Made by a program: the position numbers and the translations under genes. This document shows, piece after piece, positions 7,418 through 29,061 of a DNA stretch of 64,000 nucleotides (position 1 is the first letter of the stretch; every line of letters starts with the position of its first letter). The DNA lies in NCBI RefSeq assembly GCF_025602895.1, contig NW_026516356.1:30514-94513 (forward strand), in the 5' to 3' direction. A model generated the notes under the pieces. That model searched no databases and was not told where the DNA came from. It worked only from the letters and a program-made list of their open reading frames with translations. This stretch comes from Polychytrium aggregatum (taxonomy: Eukaryota; Chytridiomycota; Chytridiomycetes; Polychytriales).

Positions 7418-9202
7418 TGCGTTAGAGCAGTCGATGGTTGGCTGTGGCGGAAATAAGGCTGTGGATGGATCTCGCTGACTCGAGGCAGCTGGCGAGACAA
7501 GTCTGCACCGGAGTACTATGCGCCGTGAGACCGTGCCGGACCAAGTGTTGCAGGGCGGCGTGGGAGGACCTTGGCCAGCTGGGCCAAAGCCGGGCGCCGG
7601 CCTTATAGCCCGGGCAGTACGGGCGGAGGAGCAGAGCGGGCGCCCTGGATCGATGCTTGCCAGTGGTGGAGGAGGTAGGGGAGTCGGCGTGCTTGTTGGT
7701 TCAGAAGGGTCCTCGTTGCGGACAGGATGGCGGGAGACCAATGTGAGGCCGGCTGGGCTTTGGGCGGCTGTGGATTCGGGCGCCGAACCACAGCACGAAG
7801 GCGACAACAGGGCAGTCCTGGCCGTTGGTGCTGACTGTCGAAGGGGAGTGGTGTTGTTTGTTGTGAGGGGTGGAAGCGCCGGCTGTTGGACGGTATCGAG
7901 CGGTATCGAGCGGTATCGAGCATCGTTGAGGGCTGTCCAGCGCCGTCGAAGGCTGTCGAGGGCTGTCGAGGGCTGTCGGTATCGGCACTGTTAAACCGCA
8001 GGGTCAATTGGCGGGTATCCCTTCAGCTCTGTCTAGTGTTGCTGTTGCTGCTGACAGTGTCCGAGGATGCAAAAACGGTATGTGTTGTTGCAGCGACGTC
8101 GTCCGGCGCATCCCACCCCCACTGAGCAGCGCAGTTCCCCAGCCCAGACCCTCGCAAAGGCGAAAGGAGACCAGAGAGACAGAGAAAGAAGGGAGAGGGG
8201 TCGATAGGCGGGCGGAGGTGGTTGGGCGACAGACGGCTGAGGATCGGCGAGTGGTTTCGCACGGTCGACCGGGGGATACACTCCGCGGGCGGACATATCT
8301 CCGCTGCAGAGCATGCTGCGCTGGCTTGGGTCTCGAGGGACAGTTTGTGTCGATGGCCGACCACTGGTGTGGCCTATCGATCACCAGAGCGGTGTGCCCG
8401 CTCGGCACCCAACGAACCGATCTGGCGGGAGTTGCGGACAACGACCCAGCCTGGCGCGCAAACATGGGGCGGGAAACGGAATTGCCGAACAAGCGATGCT
8501 GGACAGGCGCTGCTGGACAAGTGCTGCTGGACAGACTTGCCGGGCGAGTCGGCCCTGGATGGGATATGGCCATGTCCGCCCAGCAGGCATCGCTGCGCTG
8601 GTGGTCGTGGAGTCGTGCGCGACGGATGATGAGCGGATGCGCAAGCCGGCGGCAAACAGGCGGGCAAGCGGGCAAGCGGGCAAGCCGACGCACTGATACG
8701 GACGGAGTGGAAAGCGAAAAGCTGACGGCTCGACCAACTACTCCGTTTGTTTTCCGCCGCGCAGCGCTGATGTTTGGGCCCTGTGTCTGCATCCACTTGC
8801 ATCCACTTGCATCCACTTGCATCCACTTGCATCCACTTGCATCCACTTGCATCCGCTGCCGTCCGCTTGCATGGGCGGTATCGGTCAAGCGCTCTTGCGA
8901 TATTTGGCCCGCCAAGAGTAGGGGCCGGTCGTTTCTGCGGAGCCAGTGCGCCGTCTCCTGTCCGAACAAATGTGCCGCGGCAATCCCGGCTGGCACCGCA
9001 CTGCTCGCCCTGGTCCATGCTCAAGTCTCTCGTTAGTTATCGATCCGTCTTCTAAAGCAGATCCTTGGCTGCATTGCATGTCCCCTCTGCCCACAATCCA
9101 TTGCATGTCCCCTCTGCCACCACGATCCATTTTATGGCGTGCTATCGCTCGTTGCTGGAGGGCTGTATTGGCTGGTTTCCTGCTCTGGTGCTCGCCTCGC
9201 CA
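7418..9202. other. long intergenic region with several short tandem repeats
   Basis: Open frames of over 300 codons exist on both strands at 8004-9036 but overlap each other, lack domains and contain translated simple repeats, so none is called. Direct repeats include CGGTATCGAG (x3, about 7897-7926), GGCTGTCGA units at about 7940-7976 and the 10-mer array listed separately. Confidence 0.5.
8791..8850. repeat. 10-bp tandem repeat, ATCCACTTGC x6
   Basis: Six perfect head-to-tail copies, followed by a degenerate copy (ATCCGCTGCC). They lie in the gap downstream of the tyrosinase gene. Confidence 0.95.
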
Positions 9203-19903: not shown

Positions 19904-20001
19904 ACCACCAACACCAGCACCAACACCAGCACCAGCACCAGCACCAGCACCAGCACCAGCACCAGCACCAGCACCAGCACCAGCACCAGCACCAGCACCA
20001 C
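19904..20001. repeat. (CACCAG)n-rich array in the USP 5' leader
   Basis: About 14 hexamer units of CACCAG with a few CACCAA variants, ending 14 bp before the USP ATG. The copy in the other arm is two units longer. Confidence 0.95.
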
Positions 20002-21944: not shown

Positions 21945-24900
21945 ATGTCGAAACTTGCTTGGCTCTTACTAGCTGCGCTTGTTTGGGCTGGTATGGCCGT
22001 CGCTATCGAGCAGATCGCCTGTCCTGTGGACAGGGTTAATACAGAAGTATATGTTTTGGACATGGGGATGCGGCTCCGTTTGCGATGCTGACGCCCTTGC
22101 TACTTTCTATCACTCTTTGGCTGGATCTGCCATCGCAATCGCTATCGCGCTCGATTATGATATCGACGCTTCTCCTGCTTCCGGCCCATACAAGGCATTA
22201 TCGATGCAAACGTCCTCAGCTCGGGTGGGGCAACGTTCCCGTCGGTGGTGTACCAGAACTGGACGACCCAGTTCTCGTACAATGGAACGGCGATGATCTA
22301 CTCCCCAACTTCATCCGGTATCGGAGTCCAGTCGCTGATTTCCGACCCAACATTTGCCTTTGCCGGATCGGACACCATCCCAACGCATGCTGGAACGTAC
22401 GGACCAAACACCACTTCCTCGGGACTGGTTGGCATTCCGTCCGTGGTTGGGTGAGTTCCTTGGCAGCTGTTGGATCTTAGGATGAACGCAGATGAATGCT
22501 CGCCGCCAGGTTCGAGGTGTGTATCCATGCATAATCTGTTGGTAGCTATCTGATCCTCCATGATATCTATTTTCCGCGCCGCTTTCGGCCCTCGACAATA
22601 CAGAGCAATCGCAGTGGCCTACAACTTGGGCAATTCCAGCTATCCAAGCATGGTGCTTTCGAGACAGAATATGGTCGACATCTTCAGCGGCTCGCTCAGC
22701 CGATGGAACGACAGTCGGTTGACTGCTCTGAATCCATGGCTTTCAGCCATCTCAGCCAGCATCCAGGTCGTCATCCACTCGGGGACATCCGGCACAACAC
22801 GCAACCTCCTCAAGTCGCTCGCTTCCTTCAATAGCTCGTTTGGATCTGTCTCGACAACGTTCCCGCTCACCAATTGGCAGAACGGAGTCGCGACCGGGCC
22901 CCAGCCGATCATGTCACCAACCAACATGGCTCTTTGCAGCGTTATCCAAAGCGTACCATTTACAATAGGATATTTGGATGCCTCCGATGCTTTCACTACC
23001 ATCGAAACCTATGGATCGGCCTTGTCGTTCTCCTTGGCGTCGATCATCAACCGAAGCGGTGTGGTGACCAGTCTGAATATGACCAACATGAATGTAGGGC
23101 AGCGAATATAGCGAATTACGTTGTTCCGTGAGCGCTGAGCATCTGAGCCACTCGCTTGCGACAAGATCATCGGTTTCTCTGACCATTCCACTACTTCTGC
23201 TATGCTATTTGGCTGTGTGCTTTGCTTCTAGCTCGAGGTTGACAATATTGCGGTGCCTTCTGGACTCAACATGTACACCAACGACATTGAGCGCTATTTG
23301 GACTCGGTGCTGATCGACTCGAGCCGCTCGGGTGCTTATCCGCTCATGGCCGCAAGCTATTACATTGTACGCACCAACCTGTACACCGCTCTTACTCAAG
23401 ATCAAGTGCGATTCACTCTCAACTACCTGTGGTGGACACTCTCCAACAGCTCCGCAATTGTGAGTGCCCCGGTTGCTTGTGATTTTCGTAGCTGTTCGAA
23501 GGCTGGATGGTGATATCGCGACCCGAACACTCGGCTTTCTTGACTGCTGGTCTGCTGGTCTGCTGGTCTGCTGGTCTGCTGGTCTGCTGGTCTGCTGGTC
23601 TGCTGCCAGCACTACCAATTTGATGCCTGTCATTCAGTGACACTTGATATGAGGCGAATATCTGAAAATACTGGAAGGACAATGTGCTCTGTCGAAACCG
23701 CGACGGTAACCTCGGCTGCACGTACCCTCTCTCACCGTCTTTGTTGTCTCTAGGCTACCTGTGTCGACAACTTGTTCCTACCACTGCCCCCAAGCTTGCG
23801 ACATTACTCGTTTTCGGTTCTGCAAACGCTTTCGTACAATGGTCTGCCGCTCTACTCCAACACATCGGCCTGCAATCCTTCCTTTGACGGACTTTTGCTT
23901 ACCAAGCTTGATTCGTGCAGCCACGGCGTTTGTTTATTTGGGCCCTTCATGGATCCCAGTATCAACGCATGTGTGTGCTCGGTCGGATACCTCAACGTTA
24001 ACTCCCAGGATTGCTCCGAGGTTGCCGCACCACTGCAGATCGAGCCTGGCAGCAGAATGGCCGTCCGGATGATGGCACTCTCTGCCATTGTGCTACTGAT
24101 GGCGGCAAATGCTGCGATTCTGCTCGGCATACTATGGTATCGACACCATGAAATCATCAAGAGCATCAGCTGGATGTGCTGTACAGTGATCATGGTTGGC
24201 TGCTGTAAGTTTGTGTGTCCAGCTTGCGCAGTGCTTACTTGATGGCCGACAGTTGCATGGTCGCTCGGCTCTCATCTGTGATATTTTCGATGGGACGATC
24301 TGCTGAAGGAGCTTCGTTTTGAGATTATGAGCGGCGCTGCTGGCAGAGGAGGTCGCCAGTTGCGGAGATTGCCAGTCGTGGAGCTATGTCCTTGACAGAG
24401 ATACTGGGTCATGCACCATCGGTGCCGCCACGGACCGAGCCGCTACCGGAAGATCGCAGCTCGTTCACACCGATATCCAACTATTATCGTCATTAATGGG
24501 CTCCACCTTTCGGCCTTGTCTCAAGTTGGTGGCCAGTTCGCGGCGCTCATGTATCTGCTGGCTCCAACCACAACACTATGCACGACAAGAGTGATGCTTC
24601 CGGCAATGAGCTTCACGCTTGTATTCAGGTATGCGCTTCCGAGTTTTGTTTTGTCTGTTTCTTTGATCCCAAGCCTCCAGCCGCCGCTTGTAGTCCTCAT
24701 GCCCTCGATCCTGTGGCGGACATGGCCCCAATGCTACCCTCATTGGCGAGGATACGATGGACTAGGGAGCGGCTGAGACAATCCAATGATCATGATTTTG
24801 TGGGCGCATTCTGTGGATCTCGTCATATGGACCTCATTTAATGTGTCTCATTGCGTGCGCTCTCAGCGTCATTTTCTGGAAGTCGATTCGGCTGGTGTAC

Positions 24901-25968
24901 ATATTTGACGCCAGCCAGGGCAGTTCTTTCATACACTCGGACACCACCCTGATCGCACTTGCAATGATTGCTGTCGTGGCACAATTCATCCTGGGCATGA
25001 TATGGCGACAAGCCAATCGACCGACGGCCGTACTATTGATCGTGGATTCGGAGAGTTTCCTGGACTGTGGATATGTAAACCCGTTCGATGCATACCTGGC
25101 TATCATCTATACGTTGGCCGTGCTATTGATCCTGGCGTGCATGATCATGGCCACTCTCACCCGCACGACCCGGAAGAAGCTCAAAGAGTCAAGCGAGACC
25201 TGGAGAAGCGTGATCGTTGTTATGGTGGCTCTGCTGCTCGGAACGCTTGTCGTCTACGAGCTGTTGGTGTTGCCCAACTCCCGGACGATCACAATCACTC
25301 GCAACGTCGTTGTCGCCGTACTAATGGGACTGGCGTCGTTTGGCGTGCCCGTGGCTCTATATGCCAAGCGACTGGCTTTGATCATGTTGCAGACCACGAC
25401 CGGCAGCGAATTTGAAGCCGGGTACACCGGAACGGCCGTGCCAGATCTCAAGTTCGAAGCGCCTCAAGACAACATTCAGCTGTCTGAAGTACACACGTTC
25501 GATACACGACTGCGGCTGTTGAACTCGACCGGCATCGAGGCCACGCGATATCTTCTCTTTGTCTTCCCAGAGGTTGACCGGCTGGTGATGGCCGACGTCC
25601 AGGAGATCTCGGTTCAGGAGCCTGCAATAGTGAAGCTGTCGAGCTGCGACATTGTCAAAGGAGGCCAGATTCGCAAGAGCACCTCCAACTTCTCGAACGA
25701 GCCTTTGCCCACGACATCCGCGCAGGTCTCAAGCTCGTTCCTGGTACCGCTCAAGCAGGTGGCGGCGACGGCGACGGCGACGGCGATTCCCAAAGCGACT
25801 CTGCTGATCCGCAGTGGGGTATTTTCGTACGAAATCGAGTTTGAAAAGCGGGCACATCTCAATCAGTTTTTTGAGCTCTACGAGCAGGCACGAAGGCGAT
25901 TTATGTGCCATGTTCACGGCTCGGACAAGGACGGCCGCTCGACCGAATCAAGCAGTCTGAACGAGTGA
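21945..25968 (+). CDS. receptor-like protein: PstS-like phosphate-binding domain + EGF-like knot + class-C-like 7TM domain
   Basis: Modelled exons: 21945-about 22046, about 22195-22450, 22604-23093, 23232-23459, 23754-24204, 24526-24628 and 24867-25968, about 910 aa. All junctions from exon 2 onward are phase-consistent; the exon 1/2 join is unresolved. Order: signal peptide (MSKLAWLLLAALVWAGMAVA); a PstS-type periplasmic-binding domain (GGATFPSVVYQNW, AIAVAYNLG, DIFSGSLSRWND, VVIHSGTSGTTRNLLKSL, IGYLDASDAF); a Cys-rich EGF-like stretch (CSHGVC...CVCSVGY); seven helices with class C marks (LCTTRV in TM3, FWKSIRLVYIFD after it); then a cytoplasmic tail of about 190 aa that may be PH-like (FSYEIEFEKRAHLNQFFELY). 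Expected at the plasma membrane. Phosphate or phosphorylated-ligand sensing is inferred from the fold only; no G-protein coupling is shown. Confidence 0.78.
23544..23599. repeat. 8-bp tandem repeat (CTGCTGGT x7) in a receptor intron
   Basis: Seven perfect units inside the intron between 23459 and 23754 of the PstS-7TM gene. Confidence 0.95.
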
Positions 25969-27953: not shown

Positions 27954-29061
27954 TTCAGATGCAGGCAGAGAGTGGATGCAGCGGATGCGACCGAGCAGGC
28001 GAGGGGACGGGCGACAGGAGATCGGTTGGGATGCCTCGAGCGGGCCGATGGCGAAAGAAGAGGAAGAGCAACACGGACGAGGGTCGAGAAAGAAAGGAGC
28101 TGTTTGGGCGAAGGCCAAGGGGCAAAGGAGGCCGCGCTATTGTGGACTGTGCCGTTGGCGCGGCGTTGTGCACAGGGGAGCACTGTGCTGTTGATGGATG
28201 TGAGCTTGATTGTGCACACAGTCGGGGCTGTTGCGGTACCGCCGTGCCCAAAAAAAGACACGCACAGAGCCGCGTCACCGCGCGCCCAGCTATTTCTGTC
28301 AGTGCGCAGCAGCCGCGTCTGCCTTTCTGGACCTGTCCAAGACGCGCACAGGCGCACCGTGTGCGCGACCAAAGTGACACAGGCTGTCGAGCCCGCTGCG
28401 CACACACGCGCTGTTGTTGTGCCTGTCCCGCATCTGTCCGAGCCGTTCCGGGTCTGTCCGAGTCCTGCCACCGGCAGTGACACAATCCAGCGTCGCCACA
28501 CACGTCCTGCTGTGTCACTACGACGGCGCCTTGTCTGGGGCACCGCGCCACTGAGACTGCTGTCCGACCACATGTAGGCTGCTGAAGAATTAAGGGAGGC
28601 GCAAGGCCCCACACAGCGCAACAGCGACAATGCGACGGTCCGCAACAGCCAACATCACACCAATGAGCATCATCGACAGCGGTCATCATAATCAACATCA
28701 GCATCAACATCAACATCAACATCAACATCAACATCAACATCAACATCAACATCAACATCAACATCAACATCAACATCAACATCAACATCAACATCAACAT
28801 CAGCATCAGCATCAGCATCAGCATCAGCATCAGCATCAGCATCAGCATCAACATCGTAATCAGAACCACATTCCCTGTGTGCGGCTCTCCCCACAAGGAG
28901 CAGCGCTCCGTGTGCCCTCTGTTTCACACCGGTCCCACACCGGTCTCACATCGGTCCACGCTCCCCCCCCCGCGCCGTCGCCGTCCTTCGCCGTTTTCCT
29001 CGTCCGCATCCCCGTCAGCCCTCTGGCCTTCTTTGCGCATCCATCTTCGCCTGCCTGCGAC
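27954..29061. other. divergent intergenic region with a long CATCAA array
   Basis: Separates the Alr4036-like gene (minus) from the Kre9/SH3 gene (plus). Long open frames here, for example 27413-28645 minus and 28630-29316 plus, arise from translated repeats and G/C bias. No gene supported. Confidence 0.55.
28692..28855. repeat. (CATCAA)n / (CATCAG)n hexanucleotide array
   Basis: About 27 hexamers: mostly CATCAA, switching to CATCAG toward the right end, then one CATCAA. The clean switch suggests two rounds of local expansion. Confidence 0.95.

Follow-up and report, generated by a model that had tools for sequence, protein, structure and literature searches.

The animal class C G-protein-coupled receptors (GPCRs), among them mGlu, CaSR and mGlyR, share a 7tm_3 bundle of seven transmembrane helices (7TM) and a cysteine-rich linker with the protein that we describe here, which is encoded by a gene of the chytrid Polychytrium aggregatum at positions 21945-25968, on the plus strand, of a 64,000-nucleotide stretch of contig NW_026516356.1 (the window). 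The animal receptors carry a type I ANF or a Cache ectodomain, and the linker of mGlu and CaSR is of the NCD3G family, whereas the window protein has an EGF-like linker and an ectodomain of the type of PstS, a subunit of a bacterial ABC importer. Comparable fusions are on record from other organisms, including the rhizarian Plasmodiophora brassicae.

The type I flytrap is not obligatory for class C receptors, since fungal members with other periplasmic binding protein (PBP) domains are in print, and NCD3G is reported to be absent from the novel non-metazoan members described in one of these papers (PMC3251606). In Spizellomyces punctatus, the class C receptor SPPG_06488 was listed with PBP_like_2 by Krishnan et al. 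(2012); by description it resembles the window gene as a chytrid receptor of the glutamate family that has PBP_like_2 at the N-terminus and 7tm_3 behind it, and it is one protein named in a list (PMC3251606). Rolfe et al. (2016) report 7tm3 domains fused to PBP_like_2 in P. brassicae, with phosphate predicted for four proteins, and they call the fusions transporters and claim that they are absent from other eukaryotic genomes (PMC4815078). Compared by description, these proteins resemble the window gene in combining a prokaryotic PBP_like_2 with a eukaryotic 7tm3 (PMC4815078) but differ from it in that they are named transporters and come from a non-fungus. Almost half of the class C receptors of gut fungi have type II solute-binding domains, so that, as in the window gene, a type II domain replaces the ANF flytrap; an EGF-like domain occurs in a few gut-fungus members, and their type II heads are described as resembling sugar-binding proteins, while the window head is PstS-type (PMC5168858). 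An EGF-like domain also occurs in mGlyR/GPR179, together with Cache (PMC12716839), and CaSR is inhibited by phosphate, non-competitively, via R62 of its flytrap at an anion site (PMC6795806). According to a 2025 survey, Blastocladiomycota and Chytridiomycota are enriched in glutamate-class receptors, and a survey of social amoebae has PBP_like_2 among its abbreviations. Among the papers listed by searches for this architecture or for fungal class C receptors, in a literature that mostly excludes subscription journals and preprints, we found no functional test of a PBP_like_2-7tm_3 receptor.

The initial annotation of this gene held that its architecture was still awaiting definition, a claim that is not supported, as PBP_like_2 with 7tm_3 was in print in 2012 and 2016 (PMC3251606, PMC4815078). 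The architecture is thus not new, and what we add concerns how large the family is, the residues of the binding site taken one by one, a clade that has lost the site and a tail with weak hints of a PH-like fold. The spread of the architecture beyond P. aggregatum rests on the published reports.

A PstS-type domain is joined to a class C bundle in one gene

The initial annotation proposed that a PstS-type domain is joined to a class C 7TM domain, and this is what we find. The spliced window protein without its signal peptide matches PBP_like_2 at 4.3e-13 and 7tm_3 at 6.5e-24 in Pfam, the latter with 85.4 bits and thus over the cut-off of 33.5. Single exons carry part of this signal, with the exon 7 frame alone matching 7tm_3 at 4.4e-10 and exon 3 alone matching PBP_like_2 at 1e-5 (25.9 bits, slightly below the cut-off of 27). 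In the paralog on contig C365, PBP_like_2, EGF and 7tm_3 lie within one uninterrupted frame of 1089 codons, and the signal peptide sits in an upstream exon of the public protein P0001. The domain counts that we give for the genome come from a six-frame exon search that scored the best candidates only. It yielded 28 PBP_like_2 matches, 25 of them over the Pfam cut-off, and every one of the 28 is followed downstream, at a distance of 424 to 1966 bases and on its own strand, by a 7tm_3 match; these partners account for 28 of the 58 7tm_3 matches in total, and among the candidates scored we found no PBP_like_2 apart from a receptor domain. All eight public P. aggregatum proteins that were found (P0001, P0002, P0004 and P0024-P0028) hold both domains, and the allele contig C375 has the same domain order. 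Because of the single frame of C365, and because all 28 PBP_like_2 matches are followed by 7tm_3, we conclude from the genomic sequence that the fusion is genuine.

Two neighbouring genes, or a mis-assembly, could in principle give the appearance of one protein, and gene prediction at this locus is shaky, as the public allele model P0004 omits three segments. The genomic sequence speaks for one gene, as initially annotated: a split into separate PBP and 7TM mRNAs is very unlikely given the single-frame paralog, and the 28 same-strand pairs, the eight public proteins with both domains, the identical order on the allele and the phases, which fit at all six introns, make an origin from two genes or from mis-assembly scarcely credible.

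The PstS-type domain and its putative phosphate site

The window ectodomain alone has TIGR00975 PstS as its best NCBIfam match (1.2e-33), and the same family matches all seven public paralog proteins given (3.2e-25 to 5.2e-37). Against the PDB the domain matches PstS at 1.2e-17, and of its 22 matches to E 1, all 19 with E <0.001 are named phosphate-binding or phosphate-transport; a profile of the family matches PstS 8ods at 5.2e-31 and the mGlu4 7TM at 6.1e-26. By family, the ectodomain is PstS-type and hence a type II periplasmic binding protein, which agrees with the initial annotation. A LIVBP/ANF ectodomain was ruled out, as the Pfam scan of the protein gave PBP_like_2 and 7tm_3 only.

We scored nine site positions (T/S10, F11, S38, D56, R135, S139, G140, T141 and N177), namely the ligands of E. 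coli PstS with Asn177 added. When numbering is shifted by a constant offset of 24, seven of these coincide with the seven residues given in print for X. citri PhoX (PMC5439949). The window gene matches the bacterial majority at eight of the nine, with an overall match of 25.8% (binomial 1.4e-4). For the paralogs, 20 of the 28 loci, taken as regions, were tabulated with the window gene and rows more than 95% alike were merged into 12 groups, with seven loci outside the table. Eight of these 12 groups keep the PstS phosphate ligands, six with 9/9 matches and two that differ only by Ser for Thr10, where X. citri PhoX, at the same offset, has Ser as well (Ser34; PMC5439949).

In the comparison of 13 fungal rows with 20 bacterial rows, six of the former match 9/9 and a further two depart from this by Ser at position 10 alone, and 17 of the latter have all nine ligands. 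Bacterial PstS (TIGR00975) thus shares with the window domain both the family and most phosphate ligands, but position 137 is Asp or Glu in all 20 bacterial rows and Gly in the window domain, as in all 13 fungal rows. The best single PDB match of the window domain, 1qui, also has Gly at 137; we take 1qui to be a D137 mutant of E. coli PstS, in which D137 presumably forms a salt link.

Several observations weigh against reading this domain as a phosphate-binding one. Both the window gene and its allele have His in place of the ligand Arg135. The PstS scores lie below the NCBI equivalog cut-off, at 116.5 bits for the window domain and under 205 bits, the cut-off itself, for all paralogs as well, and the binomial test of the window site match disregards the conservation of motif columns for folding. 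In three paralog groups, between 4 and 6 of the nine positions are lost, and because P0027 and P0028, which belong to these groups, match TIGR00975 nonetheless (4.2e-29 and 3.2e-25), a match to the PstS family does not show phosphate binding. The bacterial rows are also few, many are near-copies, and three of them (P0029, P0030 and P0031) match at just 6, 2 and 5 of the nine positions.

The linker, the 7TM bundle and the tail

Six cysteines, spaced in an EGF-like manner, lie in the linker, and this EGF-like knot is encoded together with TM1 in exon 5. Pfam EGF is over its cut-off in one of the three proteins scanned, P0001 (2.4e-5), and in neither the window protein nor P0002; the nine-cysteine linker NCD3G has no Pfam match in the window protein at E 0.01. 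After the ectodomain, the windows over the hydropathy threshold group by eye into seven segments; the other regions marked in this way are the signal peptide and a weak one within the ectodomain. The EGF part and the 7TM alone match mGlu2 at 2.2e-5. A Lys/Arg of TM3 and a Glu before TM6, both of which have functional roles in class C receptors, align in phmmer with the same residues of mGlu2. By these sequence features, the membrane part is a class C (7tm_3) receptor bundle.

This assignment bears on whether the protein is a phosphate transporter or transceptor, as has been proposed for the similar Plasmodiophora proteins (PMC4815078). That proposal has the advantage of being in print, with transcriptome data said to show single coding regions (PMC4815078), and the binding-domain family takes its name from ABC importers. 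The membrane part of the window protein, however, is a class C bundle with the mGlu2-like TM3 Lys/Arg and pre-TM6 Glu rather than an ABC permease, and where a binding protein sits on a 7TM, no part that would couple energy is evident, so that we regard transport as very improbable.

Behind TM7 the protein ends in a tail of some 200 aa. An alignment shows this tail to be conserved among eight family members, at 14-27% identity to that of the window protein. In a Pfam scan of the eight tails no family, PH or other, was over its cut-off and the window tail had no PH match, the closest being PH_29 in one of the eight (0.0017, with 18.3 bits below the cut-off of 27); EVH1 chains match the tail profile at 0.04. 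From these weak hints, the conserved C-terminal domain is perhaps PH/EVH1-like.

Haplotypes and the paralog family

The P. aggregatum assembly is 64.7 Mb and, because most loci come in pairs, it looks like two haplotypes. Over 4.5 kb the two haplotypes of the window gene are told apart by seven single-base changes and by a difference of 16 bases in the length of an intronic repeat; in the coding part there are two silent changes and one that exchanges F and V. A tree of 15 rows was made from the first 860 residues, with seven near-copies left out. In it the six site-lost rows form one group with support 100/99, which is a clade provided that the root falls outside it, and the window gene has the longest branch (2.04; next 1.23). 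The site-lost paralogs (L030, L031, L032, L033, L034 and L036) retain the PstS-type domain and the 7TM.

These data raise the possibility that the architecture is as we describe but that the window copy no longer binds phosphate, either because Arg135 to His retargeted it to another ligand (another anion or a phosphorylated metabolite) or because it is a ligand-silent partner of a site-intact receptor, in the way that GABA-B subunits pair. His is found on both haplotypes, the branch of the window gene is the longest, loss is tolerated in the family, as its site-lost paralogs show, and the divergent bacterial row P0030 also has His at 135, alongside other site changes. Relaxed selection, on the other hand, does not favour the retention of the other eight site positions, and we consider a loss of phosphate binding unlikely, though it is the rival to be taken most seriously. 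The long branch and the one changed ligand residue might also be taken as signs of a decaying, non-functional copy, but the frame is open over 891 codons and the coding difference between haplotypes is just the three changes given above, which makes decay even less probable than transport.

The ANF_receptor family has only two matches in the genome (C323:166166 and C46:302702) and SBP_bac_1 has two, none of them close to a 7tm_3 match in the list; among the three families of binding proteins that we searched for, just PBP_like_2 adjoins 7tm_3. Of three homologue searches, all based on exact words, two were saturated at 8000 candidates, and the third, with 646 candidates, gave five P. aggregatum proteins and three bacterial proteins. 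Prokaryotic genomes, when scanned, contributed four bacterial loci with 27-28% identity, too few to place a donor lineage.

Gene structure and surrounding sequence

Joining the frames across the introns gives one gene of seven exons and 891 aa (Table 1) in a single open frame whose sole stop is the terminal TGA, and all six introns are GT...AG with compatible phases in the joined exons. A splicing aligner that was written for this analysis and guided by the C365 protein gave identical inner exon boundaries on C375. The window protein is 31% identical to the C365 protein over most of its length, and the two align without a gap across introns 24205-24525 and 24629-24866. The first of these introns has the boundaries that the initial annotation gave it, and the signal peptide, PstS-type domain, Cys-rich linker, seven helices and tail are all present where that annotation placed them.

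Exon 1 is based on P0004, which starts with the same residues joined to IIDANV; the following intron is phase 1, and donors downstream of 21991 were dropped because P0004 fixes the end of the exon. P0004 (BJ171DRAFT_636050, 790 aa) agrees on exon 1 and on the fusion but leaves out three blocks: it has no AIAVAYNLG, no EGF part and no VIFWKSIRLVYIF in TM3. Because matching blocks are held by P0001 and by the splices of most paralogs, these omissions are likely gene-prediction errors, although the public models P0002 and P0026 also omit part of EGF and P0024 part of TM3, which weighs against this explanation.

Table 1. Features of the window gene, with positions in the window.
Feature	Positions	Strand	Content
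Exon 1	21945..21990	+	start codon and signal peptide (MSKLAWLLLAALVWAG together with exon 2)
Intron after exon 1	21991-22194	+	GT...AG, phase 1
Exon 2	22195..22450	+	PstS-type domain, first part
Ligand positions in exon 2	T10 (22233), F11 (22236), S38 (22314), D56 (22371)	+	
Exon 3	22604..23093	+	PstS-type domain, middle
Site positions in exon 3	R135 (22776), D137 (22782), S139/G140/T141 (22788-22796), N177 (22923)	+	R135 = His, D137 = Gly, S139/G140/T141 and N177 kept
Exon 4	23232..23459	+	PstS-type domain, end (YPLMAASYY...LWWTL), block conserved with paralog C365
Exon 5	23754..24204	+	linker, EGF-like knot, TM1, most of TM2
First to sixth Cys codon of linker	23871-24014	+	six cysteines, counted on the sequence
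Exon 6	24526..24628	+	103 bp: end of TM2, LCTTRV, start of TM3
Exon 7	24867..25968	+	rest of TM3 (FWKSIRL), TM4-TM7, cytoplasmic tail, stop codon
Lys codon, TM3	24880	+	aligned with mGlu2
Glu codon, before TM6	25186	+	aligned with mGlu2
Conserved C-terminal domain, possibly PH/EVH1-like	25477..25905	+	from tail alignment
Terminal stop codon	25966-25968	+	TGA

At the place of exon 6, an exon of 103 bp is found in 14 of 19 spliced loci and one of 118 bp in L025 and L026, with L021 and L022 not divided in this way and L027 outside the listing. In some loci (e.g., L019, L020, L023 and L025) the splices have spurious last exons past the tail, which were left untrimmed in the site table. The aligner places an extra intron inside the 7TM of L023 (C35a) and inside the EGF part of L029 (C35b), and these copies may be broken or mis-read there. 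The 7tm_3 match of L023 (C35, 249500-255800) is in two pieces, where the otherwise identical C380 copy has one, perhaps because of a frame break or an assembly error. L032 (C113, 502500-508500) has an in-frame stop near the EGF part in the splice reading, and its near-twin C35c is open.

The intron at 23460-23753 contains an octamer repeat, CTGCTGGT, in 7.8 copies (23544-23605), which at its start is 16 bases longer on the other haplotype. Hexamer repeats flank the gene, CACCAG in 15.8 copies (19906-20000) and ATCAAC in 27.5 copies (28691-28855), and four neighbouring frames have no Pfam match at E 0.01.

A candidate phosphate receptor

The genome also has 80 G-alpha matches, counting exons and both haplotypes. 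From the fused architecture, the PstS family match, the mostly kept phosphate site, the class C features of the 7TM and these G-alpha genes, we infer how the receptor works and what its biological role is. Its ligand would be phosphate or an oxyanion close to it, bound between the two lobes of the PstS-type head; the lobes would close upon the ligand, and the closure would be transmitted via the EGF-like linker to the 7TM bundle, which would activate a fungal G-alpha protein inside the cell; the role would be nutrient sensing, perhaps by zoospores. We lean towards this reading of the protein as a class C-like GPCR with a PstS-type (type II) head instead of a type I flytrap, in which binding of phosphate or another oxyanion leads to G-protein signalling, and hold it to be the somewhat better bet.

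The family is probably a set of phosphate (oxyanion) receptors, and phosphate is a likely ligand of the site-intact paralogs. The suggestion in the initial annotation that the receptor may sense phosphate is reasonable. For the product of the window gene itself we put phosphate just short of an even call, because its ligand Arg is His and because site-lost paralogs also match the PstS family. With His at 135, the affinity, pH dependence or ligand of the window copy may differ from those of the site-intact paralogs. A fuller scheme, which we find improbable, is a dedicated phosphate-gated class C system in which site-intact members would bind the ligand by a PstS head captured from bacteria, the site-lost members of single origin would be obligate partners in the manner of GABA-B, the His135 window gene would be pH-tuned or retargeted, and a possibly PH-like tail would lead to lipids or scaffolds.

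The family shows that class C receptors can bear a type II binding-protein head on an unchanged 7TM bundle, and with intact, single-substitution and site-lost paralogs within one genome it amounts to a natural experiment. Should phosphate prove to be the ligand of the site-intact members, the chytrid cell surface would carry a GPCR that, unlike CaSR, reads phosphate at an orthosteric site of bacterial type.

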